DNA from: Sporanaerobium hydrogeniformans
Lineage (GTDB): Bacteria; Bacillota; Clostridia; Lachnospirales; Cellulosilyticaceae
Direction of reading: 5' to 3'
NCBI RefSeq assembly: GCF_002735925.1
Contig: NZ_PEDL01000001.1
Location: forward strand, 62,001-126,000
Length of the DNA stretch: 64,000 nt
The notes beneath the pieces are model-generated. The model was not told where the DNA came from, ran no database searches, and saw nothing but the letters and a program-made list of their open reading frames with translations. Of the stretch, positions 9,730 through 37,742 are shown in pieces; position 1 is the first letter of the stretch; each line of letters opens with the position of its first letter. The position numbers were made by a program, and so were the translations under genes.

Positions 9730-10437
9730 TTAGATAAAGATGTCCTTCTTCATTTCTGTTTCAATTTTCTTATAGATGTGAACGTTATGGTCACGGTCAC
9801 AGGTAGCAAGAAAAATGTCAGAAAGGGGAGGGGCATCTTGTGATTGAAGCTGCTTTTGGAGCCAGACTTCATCAAGGCCCATATAATGGAGATTTTCAAG
9901 CATAATATGTCCATCAATGATAAGGTTGGCAACCAAATAGTCTTGAGAAGGCTTAAATTTTAAATCGTGAGGAGTAAGAGGGCGCTGATCAGAGCGAGGA
10001 AGAAAACTTAGCTTGCCATTAGGCTCTAGGATAACAGTTTGAAGTGTATGGAGGTCAAATTGGCCATTGACGCGGCACTGTGTCAGAAACTCATTGAGAT
10101 CCATCTTAGCCTTAGCCATATTTTTGTAATAGAGTTCTCCTTTGTCATAGAGAAGAATGGGCCGACCTGTTATAAAGCGGCGGAGCTTAATGGATTTGTT
10201 AGTACAAATAGAAAGCAAGGTGGTAATAAGACCATAGATAATCATAGCTGTAAGGGGCTTTAAGACATCGGTAAACATGGAAGTTGCTAGTTCAGCTGCT
10301 ATAGAGCCAATAGTAATACCATTAATATAGTCAAACATACTAAGCTGAGACATTTCTCGATTACCCATTAATTTACTTAAAATAAATAAGGTTACAATCG
10401 AAACCAATGCTGTTAAGATAGCTTCTAAAATTTCCAT
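9730..10437 (-). CDS. DUF421 (YetF-like) membrane protein
   Basis: This 235-residue protein has the YetF architecture: about three N-terminal membrane helices (residues 1-75, including SQLSMFDYINGITIGSIAAELAT) and a soluble part with the typical RRFITGRPILLYDKGELYYKNMAKAKMDLNEFL and VNGQFDLHTLQTVILEPNGKLSFLPR blocks. Bacillus members are linked to spores, but the biochemical role is not settled. An AGGTG site supports the ATG. The gene is a single unit convergent with gapN with no clear shared terminator. Confidence 0.85.
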   Translation of the reverse strand: MEILEAILTALVSIVTLFILSKLMGNREMSQLSMFDYINGITIGSIAAELATSMFTDVLKPLTAMIIYGLITTLLSICTNKSIKLRRFITGRPILLYDKGELYYKNMAKAKMDLNEFLTQCRVNGQFDLHTLQTVILEPNGKLSFLPRSDQRPLTPHDLKFKPSQDYLVANLIIDGHIMLENLHYMGLDEVWLQKQLQSQDAPPLSDIFLATCDRDHNVHIYKKIETEMKKDIFI

Positions 10438-10656
10438 ATAAACACCTCATTTCAAATTCTTAAAGCTATTATGAGCTTTTTAGCTAAAATTCATCCTTCT
10501 TAGTAAGTGAAGTATAAAAAATGCTTGTTTAATGAAAAGGGAGAAAGTATTTGAAAACAGTAGGAATAAAGACTAATATAAAAGGAGTAGAATAGTAAAG
10601 ACTGGACTCATTAAAAACAATGAAAAGATGGGATGTTTATAAGGAGTAAAGAGGTT

Positions 10657-11235
10657 ATGAAAATATGGGAACATTTTAAAACAGTTACAAAGCACCGTCA
10701 TCAAGTTATGAAGCATTGCTTAAAGGCAGGTATTTTCTGGCAGGGGTGTTTGCATGACTTGTCTAAATATAGTCCTACTGAGTTTTGGGTAGGAGCCCAA
10801 TATTACAGTGGTACCCGTAGCCCCAATGAAAAAGAGCGGGAAGAGTTAGGGTATTCAGCAGCTTGGCTTCATCATAAAGGAAGAAATAAGCACCACTTTG
10901 AATATTGGACAGACTATCACCCAAAAGCTAAACGTATTCTTCCTGTAAAGATGCCACAAAATTATGTAATTGAAATGTTTTGTGATCGTGTGGCAGCGAG
11001 TAAGATTTATTTAAAGGATCAATACACAGATAGAAGTGCACTAGAGTATTTTTTAGAGGGAAGAGTAAGAAGGGATGGTATGATTCATCCTCATACTTCT
11101 CAGCAGCTAGAAGAATTACTTCGTATGTTAGCAGAGGAAGGAGAAGAAAAAACCTTTGCTTATATAAGGGCATTAAAACAAACAGCACAAGAGAGAAAGC
11201 AAGATATGAATAGGTACAAGAGTGATGAATCATAG
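10657..11235 (+). CDS. DUF5662-family protein
   Basis: The 192-residue soluble protein carries a histidine-rich HD-like core: HRHQVMKHCLKAGI, LHDLSKYSPTEFW, WLHHKGRNKHHFEYW and EMFCDRVAASKIYL. These match DUF5662, common in Firmicutes and of unknown function. The H...HD...HH pattern resembles metal-dependent HD phosphohydrolases, but activity is not established. I start it at the ATG at 10657, which has AAGGAG and AGAGG just upstream, rather than at the in-frame ATG at 10633, which has only a poor site. Confidence 0.75.
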   Translation: MKIWEHFKTVTKHRHQVMKHCLKAGIFWQGCLHDLSKYSPTEFWVGAQYYSGTRSPNEKEREELGYSAAWLHHKGRNKHHFEYWTDYHPKAKRILPVKMPQNYVIEMFCDRVAASKIYLKDQYTDRSALEYFLEGRVRRDGMIHPHTSQQLEELLRMLAEEGEEKTFAYIRALKQTAQERKQDMNRYKSDES

Positions 11236-23184: not shown

Positions 23185-23619
23185 TTATAAATAAATACTT
23201 ATAGCTTCAGTTAGTTGCTGTTCTTTTTTTATAAGTTCATTTGCAAGTTCTTTAGCTTTGTCATCAGCTGCAGGATACTCGTTTAGATATTTATGGAGTG
23301 ATTTAATACCCATATTACAACCCTCTGTTACTAAATCTGCGACAGTAGCATCACTTTTATGCATACTAAGCTTCACATTCGTTTTTAACCAAGACATTCC
23401 CTTTGCTACAGCGCTAGGCTCTTTTTCATCTTCAGCTAAGAAAACCAAAATACTATGTGCTTTTTCTTGAAGTTGTTCATGTTCTTCTTTGCTTTTTATT
23501 AAAATCTGTTTAAATGTTTCATCTTTTACAGCATCTAACACTTCATTAATAGATTCAATAGCCATTTTAATACCAGCAGTACATTCTTTTGTTAAATGAA
23601 TAGTGTCATCTTCATACAT
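23185..23619 (-). CDS. Four-helix-bundle, ferritin-like small protein
   Basis: The 144-residue protein is almost entirely amphipathic helix and includes an EExH motif (KSKEEHEQLQEKAHSIL), as in ferritin-like and DUF2383-like bundles. A second carboxylate-rich helix lies near the C-terminus (ELANELIKKEQQLTEAISIYL). A metal site is possible but unproven. The start at the ATG at 23619 is chosen because AAAGGA sits nine bases upstream; the earlier ATG and TTG are too close to it. It is a monocistronic gene. Confidence 0.55.
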   Translation of the reverse strand: MYEDDTIHLTKECTAGIKMAIESINEVLDAVKDETFKQILIKSKEEHEQLQEKAHSILVFLAEDEKEPSAVAKGMSWLKTNVKLSMHKSDATVADLVTEGCNMGIKSLHKYLNEYPAADDKAKELANELIKKEQQLTEAISIYL

Positions 23620-23755
23620 TGTCATCAATCCTTTTATAAATTATTGTTTTTAATAAAGCTAAATTTAGTTTACCCTCATTTATTTAAGTTTATAACCTAT
23701 TGGAGATACTAAACGTGTGAGCGTACAGTATTATAATATTTTTTTAAGAAAAGAA

Positions 23756-23800
23756 AAGCTGAAGTGCATACTCTATTTTGAGTAAAAGGTACTTCAGCTT
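23756..23800. terminator. Orphan two-part hairpin in a gene-free gap
   Basis: AAGCTGAAGT (23756-23765) pairs with ACTTCAGCTT (23791-23800), enclosing a smaller ACTC/GAGT stem. A T-rich tail exists on the minus strand. The gap of 336 bases (23620-23955) otherwise holds the inverted repeat at 23825 and AT-rich DNA. Confidence 0.5.
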
Positions 23801-23824
23801 TCTTTAAAATAAAACCTCAAAAGT

Positions 23825-23850
23825 CATATTCTATTGCGAAAAAGAATATG
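23825..23850 (+). promoter_or_regulatory. Inverted repeat upstream of the COG0523 locus
   Basis: CATATTCT and AGAATATG are perfect 8-base arms with a 10-base spacer, about 105 bases before the first GTPase gene. This could be a metalloregulator operator. It does not match the Zur or Fur boxes I know. Confidence 0.35.
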
Positions 23851-23955
23851 TTTAAAAAGACAAGCTGGTTAGAGCTTATTATATATTTTTTATAGAAAGT
23901 TAAAGTTCAAGATAAACCAGTAAATAAGTGTATAAAAGAGAAAGGAGAGCAGGGG

Positions 23956-24969
23956 ATGACACGAATTTATATTATTTCAGGATTTTTAGGGGCAGGAAAG
24001 ACAACACTTATTCAGAAGTTATTAGATGAAAAAGTGTTAGGAGGTAAGGTGGCACTTATAGAGAATGAATTTGGTGAAGTAGGGATAGATGGAGGACTCC
24101 TGAAACAAAATGGTTTAGAAATTAAAGAAATGAATTCAGGGTGTATTTGCTGCAATTTAGTGGGTGATTTTACAGTAGCACTTAAAGAAATTTTAAAGAC
24201 ATACAAGCCAGAAAAAGTTATTATTGAGCCGTCAGGTGTAGGGAAGCTTTCGGATATTTTAAAAGCTTGTAATAAAGTCATTAAGCCAGGTGAGGTTGAG
24301 CTTGGACAAACTTTAGTTGTGGTGGATGGGCTTAAATATCGTCTCCATTCTCGAAATTTTGCCACATTCTTTAAGGATCAAATTATCTATGCAGACAATA
24401 TTATGCTCAGTCGTACCCAATATATGACGCCAAAGGAAGTAGATCAGGCAAAGGGAGAAATGAGAAAACTTAATTCCAAGGCTACCCTTATTACTACACC
24501 CTGGGAACGTTTAACAGGAGAAACCATAATAAGTGTCATGTCAGAAAAGCCTATTAGCCTAGAAGAGGAGTTATTAGGCAGTTTAAAGCAACAAGACTTT
24601 AAGGAAGGGACAAGCTTAAAGCTGGATAAAAAGATGGGTTTATTTCAGAAGGAAAGATATATTTTACATAAAGAGGTAGAAGTAAGAAAGGAAAAAAAGG
24701 ATAATTTTTTTCAGACTTGGGGCAAGGAAACAACAAGGCATTATAATAAAGAAACGCTTTATCATATATTAGGACGACTTGACGAGAAGGAATATGGGTG
24801 TATTCTTCGGGCAAAAGGCATTGTAGAAGGGGAAAATGGGCAATGGCTTCAGTTTGATTTTGTGCCAGGGGAGGGAAGGGTTCAGCCTATTTTACCTCAA
24901 TGTGAAGGAAAACTTTGTGTGATTGGAACAGAACTTCAGCAAAAAGCATTAGAAAAACTATTTAGCTAA
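23956..24969 (+). CDS. COG0523 (CobW/YciC-like) G3E GTPase
   Basis: The 337-residue protein shows the G3E hallmarks: Walker A GFLGAGKTT (residues 9-17), ENEFGEVGIDG, the metal-binding CICC motif (Cys63, Cys65, Cys66) and the Walker B-like IIEPSGVG. Members are metal chaperones or insertases that use GTP, often under zinc control. The usual NKxD base-recognition motif is not seen; the region reads NIMLSRTQYM, so nucleotide choice may be relaxed. The C-terminal domain is the variable CobW_C-like region. It is first of three closely spaced genes with a GTPase-permease fusion and a TIGR03943 protein, consistent with a metal homeostasis operon. Confidence 0.8.
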   Translation: MTRIYIISGFLGAGKTTLIQKLLDEKVLGGKVALIENEFGEVGIDGGLLKQNGLEIKEMNSGCICCNLVGDFTVALKEILKTYKPEKVIIEPSGVGKLSDILKACNKVIKPGEVELGQTLVVVDGLKYRLHSRNFATFFKDQIIYADNIMLSRTQYMTPKEVDQAKGEMRKLNSKATLITTPWERLTGETIISVMSEKPISLEEELLGSLKQQDFKEGTSLKLDKKMGLFQKERYILHKEVEVRKEKKDNFFQTWGKETTRHYNKETLYHILGRLDEKEYGCILRAKGIVEGENGQWLQFDFVPGEGRVQPILPQCEGKLCVIGTELQQKALEKLFS

Positions 24970-24978
24970 GGAGGAAAA

Positions 24979-26604
24979 GTGATGCAAGTACCTATTGATA
25001 TAGTAAGTGGCTTTCTAGAAGCAGGCAAAACAACCTTTATTCAAGCGTGTCTTCAACAGGGGTTGGCACGAGGTGAGCGTCTTGTAATTATTTTATGTGA
25101 AGAAGGAAGCACCAAGTTAATAGATACGCATTCACTCAAAACATTCTCTCATCAAGGAAAAGAGAGCAGTGGTTTAAATGGCATAGAAGGGATTTATAAC
25201 ATAGAAATAGTTGAGGAAGAAACAGAACTTACAAAAAGTTTTTTTAAAAAATTAGAAAAGAAGTATCATCCTACTCGTATTTTAATAGAGTACAATGGGA
25301 TGTGGGAGCTAAGTACACTTTTAAAGGTGAAATTGCCCACAAGTTATTTTATAGGCACGAATTTTTATCTAGTAGATGCTTCTACCTTTGAAATTTATAT
25401 GGCAAATATGAGTACATTAATAAGTCGTCAATTAATAGAAGGGGATGTTATTTTAGTAAATAGACAAAAGCAGCTGACAAAAGAAGAACAAAGCCGGTTA
25501 GAGCTAACAGTTCATAACCTTTCTAAAAGCTGCCCCATCTATTATGAAGGTGAAGCGGGGTATTGGGAAAAAATAAAAGGGTGGTTCAGAGTATCACCTG
25601 AGCTCAAACAAATCAATAGGCAAAAATTAGGGATGATAGGGATGAGTCTCTTAGTGAGTATCCTAAGCATCTTACTTCTTTTGAAAAAAGATTTTAATCC
25701 TTACTATAGTGAAAGTGTAGAAGTATTGCGGCTAATGACCAACACACTAGTAGAAGCCACACCTTTTGTAATCATTGGAGTAGTCGTTGCTTCAGTATTA
25801 GAGTTGTGTCTTTCGGAGCGATTGCTTCTGCGTCTATTTAATGCACCCATGGGACTGGGCCATTTAATGGCATTAGGATTAGGTGTGCTCTTTCCCGTTT
25901 GTGACTGTGCAATAGTACCTATTACCTCGGGTCTTTTAAAAAAGGGAGTACCTCTCTCAAAAGCAATGCTCTTTATGCTGGCAGTACCCATTATGAATCC
26001 TATTGTATGGCTTTCTACCTCTTATGCTTTTCCTACACGTCAGTGGCTTATAGGTTATCGTATTGGAACAGGACTTTTAATGGCGTTTTGCAGTAGTCTT
26101 ATACTAGAACGAATCGTAGGCAAGAAGCTAACTGTTACTAAGCAAGGTATTGGAGGGAGTTGCCAAAGTGGGTATTTAGGAGAACTTTATTTTAAAGAAG
26201 GCTTGGGGAAGGTAGAAGCAGTCTTTAGACATAGTATGTTAGAATTTTTGCGAATTATGGGTTATGTGGTAATGGGGACATTGATTTCTTCTATTGTACA
26301 AGTATGTGGGCTCGAATTTTTTCAAAAGGAGGGTATGAATTTTACAGCTTCTTTTGGTCTAATGTTTTTAGCCTCCTTGTTTCTATCGGTTTGTGCGAGC
26401 TCTAATGCCTTTATCGCTAGGGGATTTTTAGGGGTTATACCGCTAAGTGGGATTGTAGGGTATATGGTAATGGGCCCTATACTAGATATTAAAAATTTAT
26501 TTTTAATGCTAGGACACTTTTCAAAGAAGTTTATATTTCTTTATTGTGGGATTGTTATTAGTCTTTCATTTATTATTTTTTCACTAGTAAATGTATGGCT
26601 TTAA
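24979..26604 (+). CDS. Fusion of COG0523-type GTPase domain and ArsP-type permease
   Basis: Residues 1-210 form a P-loop domain of the COG0523 type (GFLEAGKTTF at 11-20, IILCEEG at 37-43, ILIEYNGMWEL), without the CxCC metal motif and without NKxD. From about residue 214 the protein becomes a polytopic membrane permease of the UPF0718/ArsP type: TPFVIIGVVVASVLEL, the GVLFPVCDCAIVPITSGLLKKGVP block near residue 305 (families usually have PVCSCG), and VPIMNPIVWLSTSYAF. The stop falls after a normal C-terminal helix, so both parts look intact. The gene starts nine bases after the first GTPase with GGAGGAA. A nucleotide-gated metal or thiol-metal transporter is the natural guess, which is inference. 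Confidence 0.75.
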   Translation: MMQVPIDIVSGFLEAGKTTFIQACLQQGLARGERLVIILCEEGSTKLIDTHSLKTFSHQGKESSGLNGIEGIYNIEIVEEETELTKSFFKKLEKKYHPTRILIEYNGMWELSTLLKVKLPTSYFIGTNFYLVDASTFEIYMANMSTLISRQLIEGDVILVNRQKQLTKEEQSRLELTVHNLSKSCPIYYEGEAGYWEKIKGWFRVSPELKQINRQKLGMIGMSLLVSILSILLLLKKDFNPYYSESVEVLRLMTNTLVEATPFVIIGVVVASVLELCLSERLLLRLFNAPMGLGHLMALGLGVLFPVCDCAIVPITSGLLKKGVPLSKAMLFMLAVPIMNPIVWLSTSYAFPTRQWLIGYRIGTGLLMAFCSSLILERIVGKKLTVTKQGIGGSCQSGYLGELYFKEGLGKVEAVFRHSMLEFLRIMGYVVMGTLISSIVQVCGLEFFQKEGMNFTASFGLMFLASLFLSVCASSNAFIARGFLGVIPLSGIVGYMVMGPILDIKNLFLMLGHFSKKFIFLYCGIVISLSFIIFSLVNVWL

Positions 26605-26624: not shown

Positions 26625-27332
26625 ATGAAACGGTATTTAAATGTTGGGGTATTACTTAAGCTTCTTGTAGTAATAGGAATAGGTGGAGTTTTTGGTAAAC
26701 TTCTTTTAAATGGCAATTGGGCAACGTATATGCATCCTAGAATGGTGCCCTACATTGCTATTGCACTGATGCTATTAAGTGGAATGACGTTCTTTGAAAT
26801 ACCGCAGGTATGGAAGCCAAGTCATCATTTAAAGATGATGCCAGCTCTTTTACTTTTAGTCATACTAATGGTACTTGTAGTAGGCGAAAAAGTGATTGGA
26901 AAAGATAAAGCGATAGAAACGATGAGCCAACAAAGTAAGGAGCAGAGAAAAGCAGAAACGTTTAGTCAAACAGATAGGATAGAAATAGCAGATGAGGATT
27001 TTGGAAAATGGTATATTAAAATCTATGAAGAAGCTAAACTATATGAGGGCAAAAAAATACGCCTTAAAGGGCAAGTCCTTCATGATCCTGAATTAGGTTC
27101 TGATGAATTTGTACCTTCTCGGCGTGTGATAACTTGTTGTGCGGCAGATGCCGGCTCATATGGTTTTGTATGCCGAAGCCCCCAGGCTTCTAGCTTAAAA
27201 GAGGATGAATGGGTATGGGTGACAGGCACTCTTTACTGGCAGGAGATTTTAGGAGAGGAAATACCTGTCATAGAAGCTATAGCTATTGAAAAGGCTGAAC
27301 CACCCATTGAAGAGTATGCAACGTTTGAGTAA
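26625..27332 (+). CDS. TIGR03943 (DUF1980, YcgQ-like) membrane protein
   Basis: The 235-residue protein has about three N-terminal membrane helices and a C-terminal soluble OB-like domain with GKKIRLKGQVLHDPEL, RRVITCCAADAGSYGFVC and the DEWVWVTGTLYW strand. These are the landmarks of TIGR03943/DUF1980 proteins, which are usually encoded beside a permease such as Bacillus YcgR. The paired cysteines suggest metal binding. It lies 20 bases after the fusion gene and converges on the pyruvate:ferredoxin oxidoreductase gene with a 14-base gap. Confidence 0.8.
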   Translation: MKRYLNVGVLLKLLVVIGIGGVFGKLLLNGNWATYMHPRMVPYIAIALMLLSGMTFFEIPQVWKPSHHLKMMPALLLLVILMVLVVGEKVIGKDKAIETMSQQSKEQRKAETFSQTDRIEIADEDFGKWYIKIYEEAKLYEGKKIRLKGQVLHDPELGSDEFVPSRRVITCCAADAGSYGFVCRSPQASSLKEDEWVWVTGTLYWQEILGEEIPVIEAIAIEKAEPPIEEYATFE

Positions 27333-37022: not shown

Positions 37023-37565
37023 TTAAACCTCTTTTGTACGAAAAGCATTTAAATGGATCGTAAGGTATTTAAGAGTGAAATACAGTATTGCACACTCGAT
37101 GGGGATAATGGCAAAATTTTTAGCAAGCCTTAAAGGTAATAAGGCCATAAAGGCTTTACCATTGGTAAGGCTTAACCAATAAGTATTTAGTAATCCGTGA
37201 AGGATAAGATTTACAAAAGCATTTGCCATAACGATATGAGGTAAACTTATCTTTCCCTTCATTTTTTTATAATGCATAAAATAACCATAAGTGAAGCCAC
37301 CTAAAGCCGCAGTTAGGGTATAACCGGGGAAAAAGGGAGATGTTTGTGGAAATAAGAAAAAGCCTAAAATATCTGCTGCTGCACCCATAGCACACGTAAT
37401 CCAAGGTCCATATAAATAAGCTGTAAGTCCGGATACGATAAAGCCAAAAGAAATACGCAAAAAATTATTAAAGAGTGTAATTTGAGCCACACGCGCTAGA
37501 ATAATTTTAAGGCTGATAAAAAGTCCAAGTAATACAGTATCTTTTGTTTGTAAATTGTTTTTCAT
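37023..37565 (-). CDS. folT: Folate ECF transporter S-component
   Basis: The 180-residue integral membrane protein has about six helices, with LGLFISLKIILARVAQITLFNNFLRISFGFIVSGLTAYLYGPW and GAAADILGFFLFPQTSPFFPGYTLTAALGGF, the pattern of ECF S-components of the FolT group. It captures folate and works with a shared ECF energising module encoded elsewhere. The assignment to folate rests strongly on the tetrahydrofolate riboswitch directly upstream. AAAAGGAG precedes the ATG. Confidence 0.9.
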   Translation of the reverse strand: MKNNLQTKDTVLLGLFISLKIILARVAQITLFNNFLRISFGFIVSGLTAYLYGPWITCAMGAAADILGFFLFPQTSPFFPGYTLTAALGGFTYGYFMHYKKMKGKISLPHIVMANAFVNLILHGLLNTYWLSLTNGKAFMALLPLRLAKNFAIIPIECAILYFTLKYLTIHLNAFRTKEV

Positions 37566-37639: not shown

Positions 37640-37742
37640 GGCAGCGGAATGCGATATAAGTACCGCAAATCCTTTGAGGATTTTTCGTCTAGTGGCAACT
37701 TCCCGTCCAACTAGCACTTAACGCACTTATATCTACTCTGCC
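37640..37742 (-). promoter_or_regulatory. Tetrahydrofolate (THF) riboswitch
   Basis: Read on the minus strand, the RNA begins GGCAGAGUAGAUAUAAG, continues with GCGUUAAGUG, a stem-loop with GGACGGGAAGUUGCC, the ACGAAAAAUCC...GGAUUUGCGGU arm, and closes with AUCGCAUUCCGCUGCC. This matches the folT-associated THF aptamer consensus (GGAGAGUAGAU, GCGUUAAGUGU, GCAUCCGCUCC) in order and pairing. The 3' strand of the closing stem can alternatively pair with GCAGCG just downstream (hairpin 37630-37646, followed by CTTCTTT), which may form the expression platform. High folate would lower transporter expression. Confidence 0.93.

Follow-up and report, generated by a model that had tools for sequence, protein, structure and literature searches.

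The gene at positions 24982..26604 (+ strand) of the 64,000-nucleotide stretch of Sporanaerobium hydrogeniformans DNA analysed here (contig NZ_PEDL01000001.1, positions 62,001 to 126,000; hereafter the window) encodes a cobW-type domain (G2) fused in a single frame to an ArsP_1 permease. On either side lie the genes for G1, a free COG0523 GTPase, and T, a TIGR03943 protein, and this gene set recurs in other genomes in a fixed order. The component families are known, and the fusion is frequent among public clostridial genomes; a search of the open-access literature at title and abstract level, preprints excluded, found no report of a cobW–ArsP_1 fusion. Judged by sequence, the fused family is a clostridial zinc-regulon cassette, to which the window's own operon forms an exception, and the metal-binding motif is divided from the permease-bound domain and kept by the free GTPase. 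The operon is tentatively read, at slightly less than an even chance, as encoding a membrane machine of Clostridia that handles, and probably acquires, zinc and that includes a docking GTPase domain.

Domain architecture of the fusion protein

The frame is open from a GTG at 24979 to the stop codon ending at 26604; the likelier start is the ATG at 24982, directly behind an AGGAGG, which yields a protein of 540 aa and bears out the single-frame fusion of cobW domain and permease described in an earlier note on this DNA. The N-terminal G2 domain (residues 5–186, 24994..25539, + strand) matches cobW (PF02492) at 44.6 bits against a cut-off of 20.7, so that the first ~210 residues do hold a cobW domain, and it carries the Walker A sequence GFLEAGKT together with CEEG and IEYNGMW; all motifs that had been quoted for the protein are found in the translation. 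The permease (residues 247–534, 25720..26583, + strand) matches ArsP_1 (PF03773) at 137.8 bits against a cut-off of 32.3, covering profile positions 4–290 of 294. At E-values up to 1, cobW and ArsP_1 are the only Pfam matches in the fusion protein, with neither CobW_C nor a FeoB domain among them, and a sequence search of the PDB with G2 alone gave no credible match. Between the two domains, the structure model places a helix at residues 214–233 (25621..25680, + strand), which is probably a membrane helix that would keep G2 cytoplasmic.

Operon partners and upstream region

G1 (337 aa, 23956..24969, + strand) is a COG0523 GTPase with matches to cobW (133.5 bits) and CobW_C (27 bits) and a CICC motif at 24142–24153; it ends 12 bases before the fused gene, which in turn ends 20 bases before T. 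The latter (235 aa, 26625..27332, + strand) scores 153.1 bits against the TIGR03943 cut-off of 88.8 in NCBIfam and is predicted to form helices at residues 7–29, 38–63 and 72–87, followed by an OB-fold that matches DUF1980_C (26970..27329, + strand; 105.8 bits in Pfam). The Pfam and NCBIfam scores thus confirm the operon with a free COG0523 GTPase and a TIGR03943 protein.

The intergenic region 23629..23955 must carry the operon promoter. The best score for a Zur-type box in it is 8 of 13, and a riboswitch search near the operon returned no Rfam family at gathering score, with sub-threshold matches only in 23600–24000. A strong stem-loop with 11-bp perfect outer arms, followed by TTTCTTT and matching no Rfam family, lies before G1 at 23755–23801; the region has a further dyad, with arms of 8 bp, at 23825–23850.

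Distribution of the fusion

The sample of named genomes consisted of 79 loci, the best-scoring of 279 relatives found, and 78 of them hold the fusion in one ORF. A frameshift or assembly artefact was considered and is rejected, since the same single frame is present in independent genomes. T stands directly behind the fused gene in 76 of the 78 fused loci, at a gap of at most 87 bases in 70 of these 76. G1 stands directly before it on the same strand in 54 of 78 and somewhere in the locus in 61, being absent from the other 17, where some contigs are short. Among 391 Clostridia genomes (own included), the fused frame occurs in at least 18 besides the window's genome, and G2 and the permease are separate neighbours in at least five. 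A split form with the order G1, G2 (~221 aa), permease (~300 aa) and T is found in four genomes of the window's own family. The fixed order G1, G2–permease, T, the occurrence of G2 as a separate gene beside the permease and its fusion in other places to the C-terminal domain of DUF1980 support the suggestion that the parts belong together. A sample of 299 genomes of the phylum gave seven matches at an E-value of 1e-35 besides the own genome, in the permease part only, one of them within a 627-aa frame (G549). Two fusion carriers are labelled as other phyla (L127 and L188), both of them MAGs.

Individual loci show further arrangements. One genome (G442) has a fused and a split cassette at different places (L051/L080 and L090), while Clostridium vincentii (L165) has two complete cassettes of G1, fused gene and T in tandem behind znu genes. 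In genome G400, a permease relative (L067) contains stop codons within the match and is apparently decayed. A gene of the AnfO family, an iron-only nitrogenase protein (PF09582, 188.5 bits), lies behind T at 10032–10691 of locus L093, and the AnfO-containing cluster of this locus is also found behind T in L068 and L069.

Conserved residues and the division of metal and nucleotide roles

The fused proteins were compared in an alignment of 69 rows, namely the window's copy and 68 of the 78 fused proteins. In G2, the Walker A pattern GxxxxGK[ST] and the residues E40, G42, E103 and N105 are kept in 69 of 69, while the base-recognition stretch is variable, so that GTP is not certain to be its nucleotide. 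The CxCC motif is present in none of the 69 fused G2 domains, nor in the nine split G2 proteins or in the 14 G2–DUF1980 proteins (14 of 17 loci passed the filter), whereas CICC is found in all 62 G1 proteins of relatives, 60 of which fit the Walker A pattern. The division of metal and nucleotide roles proposed in the earlier note is therefore sharper than it had been drawn. In the accessible text of PMC2770081, the CxCC metal motif is stated for all COG0523 members, and G2, which lacks it, is accordingly filed here as a cobW-type domain rather than a canonical COG0523 metallochaperone. Of the idea of a metallochaperone tethered to a transporter, the tethered cobW-type domain stands, but that domain has no metal motif.

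In the permease, C307, C309, K321, C471, D502 and N505 are kept in 69 of 69 fused proteins; residue 308, in the C307-D308-C309 stretch encoded at 25900..25908 (+ strand), is aspartate in 64 and glutamate in five, and C471 is encoded at 26392..26394 (+ strand). Among 65 T proteins (including L177, whose locus lacks the fusion), R166, C171, C172, D175, G180 and W196 are invariant, the C171-C172 pair of the window's T being encoded at 27135–27140 (+ strand). The window's copy holds all conserved metal and nucleotide residues.

Zinc-regulon context

The recurrent neighbours of the fused loci are ZnuA, an ABC ATPase, an ABC-3 permease (ZnuB) and a FUR-family protein, identities that were verified with Pfam in eight representatives. 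With profiles built in this analysis and flanks of at most 6 kb, which some contigs cut short, ZnuA or ZnuB was found in 39 of the 78 fused loci, a Fur-family gene in 26 and either in 46, leaving 32 with neither. In 18 of the 78, the cassette is preceded by znu genes within one same-strand run. The window's genome has four FUR-family matches and one ZnuA match in 3.74 Mb, from which about 2% of such loci would, as an estimate, be expected to contain one by chance.

A Zur-box-like palindrome, TGCAAATNATTNGCA, was derived from L071, L095 and the own znuA upstream region and then tested within 300 bases of operon starts; L121 is not independent of L071, and five of the 78 loci were dropped because their upstream regions were too short. 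At least 11 of 13 positions match before 37 of 73 operon starts, and at least 12 before 21, compared with 3/286 and 0/286, respectively, in control upstream regions of unrelated genes from the same loci. The operon starts with G1 or the fused gene itself in 23 of the 37 box-bearing cases. A search for a Bacillus-type Zur box found none convincing at the operon starts. In the accessible text of PMC6336718, Zur of Bacillus anthracis is described as binding in vitro upstream of the ArsP_1 permease BAS1632 and the COG0523 gene yciC; the two genes adjoin as in the clostridial cassette, although no fusion is described there, and the systems are compared by description only.

Neither znu nor fur adjoins the operon in the window, and no Zur-type box precedes it, yet the own znuA is preceded by an exact TGCAAATNATTNGCA box. 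With one mismatch allowed, the genome yields 9 and 3 sites, and the reversed control pattern yields 10 and 8, so that only exact sites are informative in it; the second exact site (contig C62) lies inside an ORF. Among the listed relatives, the nearest to the window's copy is that of Clostridium ihumii (39% in the best segment), which has fur and znuA right behind T and no strong box before G1.

Structure models and membrane sidedness

The model of the fusion protein has a mean pLDDT of 87.5 and a pTM of 0.78. The modelled residues 1–212 are nearest to HypB (Z 15.8), followed by UreG and YjiA (15.1), including Zn-bound YjiA. The helix list of the permease shows two four-element repeats, 239–379 and 406–539, and as read from this list, by helix position rather than distance, C307/C309 and C471 stand at equivalent helix breaks of the two repeats. 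Residues 244–540 align with ArsB at Z 12.2 (276 residues, 5.2 Å) and with NaS1 and VcINDY at Z 11.7 and 11.4. As these alignments cover about 276–304 residues at 5.2–6.7 Å, and helical proteins reach such Z values by common arrangement, they are no more than suggestive of a fold kinship with the ion transporter superfamily that includes ArsB, NaS1 and VcINDY.

The T model has three membrane-length helices, the third of them short, and then a domain matching OB-folds. Across the 65 T proteins, the second loop has 3.63 lysine and arginine residues in 11 positions, and the linker that follows helix three is acidic. Read by the positive-inside rule, the basic second loop would set the OB domain of T outside, and it probably lies on the outer face of the membrane. 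In the soluble G2'–DUF1980 proteins (A3; L191–L206), the corresponding domain belongs to a protein without membrane helices and would be on the inner side, so that the Cys-Cys OB domain is seemingly outside in T and inside in the soluble form.

Origin of the soluble form

Contig C3 of the window's genome carries another cassette, a soluble one, in which G2', joined to a DUF1980_C-like domain, comes after a gene G1'. It has the same kind of G1, the same G2 subfamily without CxCC and the same Cys-Cys OB domain as the operon in the window, but neither a permease nor any membrane part. None of 16 such cassettes has the box, and of 17 loci none carries znu genes and one carries a Fur gene. The cassette on C3 (L008 6125–9073, G000:C3) lies behind a gene that resembles methylenetetrahydrofolate reductase by eye; the neighbours of soluble cassettes differ between other genomes.

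G2–DUF1980 C-terminal domain fusions thus exist, as the earlier note had stated for this subfamily, but its view that the partner was here swapped for the membrane component is not supported: DUF1980_C was not lost, since T, encoded in this operon, has it at its C-terminus. The direction was probably the reverse. The soluble form is one clade in the trees of G2 (67 rows), the OB domain (61) and G1 (62), with support of 99/95, 96/89 and 100/99, and this clade nests within a subclade that also includes the window and 9 to 11 other fused-type rows (99/94, 100/99 and 100/98, respectively). The trees hold about half of the available rows; that of G2 was rooted by G1, that of the OB domain by GTPase-free T proteins, which are not one clade, and that of G1 by distant COG0523 proteins with very long branches. 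In AU tests of the soluble nesting against an A+B clade, p was 0.040 for G2 (chosen post hoc) and 0.51 for G1, and the case for nesting comes from the three parts yielding the same subclade. Being nested inside the permease-fused family, the DUF1980-fused soluble form is probably derived from it. The simplest account would be that an operon of the G2–permease–T type lost the permease and the membrane part of T, and that G2 was joined to the OB domain.

The fusion itself is likely to have a single origin. In the permease tree (109 rows; L085_8 was left out because of its very long branch, and L184_9 was scored as neither fused nor free), fused versus free requires three changes, and the AU test does not reject a single fused clade (p 0.202). 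The window's permease has a long branch there (2.03) and groups with that of Clostridium ihumii (SH-aLRT 88).

A proposed mechanism and its alternatives

If the operon acquires zinc, T would gather or pass on Zn(II) with its Cys-Cys OB-fold, probably on the outer face, and the permease would carry the ion inward via a site formed by C307, C309 and C471. At the cytoplasmic mouth, nucleotide-bound G2 would dock the free GTPase G1, whose CICC motif would receive the metal from the channel; hydrolysis would then separate G1 from G2, and G1 would carry the zinc onward. Nucleotide-dependent dimers are a frequent working form of GTPases in the broader class that includes HypB, UreG and the signal-recognition pair. 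A G2 that is fixed to the permease and has no metal motif, next to a free G1 that has CICC, fits such docking. The zinc cargo, the inward direction, the sidedness, the pairing of G1 with G2 and hydrolysis as the release step are all parts of a scheme that we infer.

The better-studied ArsP_1 relatives, SO_0444 and ArsP, are exporters, which counts against import. In an efflux or detoxification system of their kind, the permease would export a metal or organometal, and the GTPases would load or regulate it from inside. The nearest NCBIfam models are those of the Cu/Zn efflux transporter SO_0444 (47.9 bits) and the efflux transporter SaoE (40 bits), but both scores are far under the respective cut-offs of 300 and 325, and a literature search on SaoE-type systems yielded no useful paper. 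The alignment of residues 244–540 with the arsenite exporter ArsB also speaks for export, as does the position of the box before BAS1632, which its authors take as Zur activation (PMC6336718, accessible text), a poor fit with a plain starvation gene. However, the operon runs shared with znu genes in 18 of 78 loci and a box identical to that of znuA fit starvation better than excess, and we consider efflux unlikely. Zinc regulation of a system with another cargo is also improbable; here, the permease would move a ligand, a precursor or an envelope component and the GTPases would belong to a zinc-saving response. Permease/T pairs without GTPases or zinc genes do occur at four loci of the class sample, and the accessible text of PMC5584981 links ScfAB and YcgRQ to stress and envelope regulation, the phenotypes given there for the permease/TIGR03943 pair without GTPases being acid stress and infection, none zinc-linked. 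Against this stand the invariant cysteines of the permease and T and the CICC GTPase in the operon, which point to a soft metal.

The window's copy may also differ from its family, which would handle zinc while this copy has been turned to a different purpose or metal or is controlled differently. The lack of a box and of zinc genes here, in a genome whose own znuA keeps a perfect box, and the long branch of the permease agree with such repurposing; the presence of every conserved metal and nucleotide residue does not, nor does the nearest relative, with its fur and znuA behind T, though without a strong box, and the idea appears rather doubtful. Returning to zinc acquisition, a wider scheme is possible, though clearly less likely than not, in which the fusion is a second GTPase-fused metal importer of Clostridia that arose independently of FeoB. 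A cobW switch that had lost its metal site, set on an ArsP-type permease, would capture its metal-binding sister GTPase at the mouth of the channel, so that zinc moves from the outer OB-fold via the channel to the chaperone and is never freed; in one branch, the membrane parts would later have been lost and the three soluble domains retained for zinc transfer in the cytosol.

Relation to known systems

With CICC and CobW_C, G1 fits the COG0523/G3E group (YciC/ZagA, YjiA, CobW) as an ordinary member. G2 shares with the group its cobW domain, the invariant Walker A and the HypB/UreG/YjiA-like model, but it differs in having neither CxCC nor CobW_C and in being joined to a permease. The fusion has a full ArsP_1 domain like the permeases ArsP, SO_0444, SaoE and ScfA/YcgR, and, like ScfAB and YcgRQ, a TIGR03943 partner; it differs from all of them in its N-terminal GTPase-type domain and zinc-regulon context, and from SO_0444 and SaoE also in scoring far below their cut-offs. 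FeoB is an iron importer. The likeness to it is one of layout only, an N-terminal nucleotide-switch domain fused to a metal-type permease, as the switch is here of cobW type, the permease is ArsP_1 and no Pfam domain is common to both.

The purpose of nucleotide hydrolysis in COG0523 proteins and the hand-over of metal from transporter to chaperone are open questions. A natural fusion of a transporter with a COG0523-type partner, with the duties split over two GTPases, makes both of them testable. The permease/TIGR03943 pair, represented by ScfAB and YcgRQ, for which phenotypes but no known function are reported in the accessible text of PMC5584981, gains a zinc context.

Elsewhere in the window, a THF riboswitch (37640–37742, − strand; 90.1 bits) lies upstream of a gene for a 180-aa membrane protein (37023–37565, − strand) that resembles a folate transporter subunit by eye.
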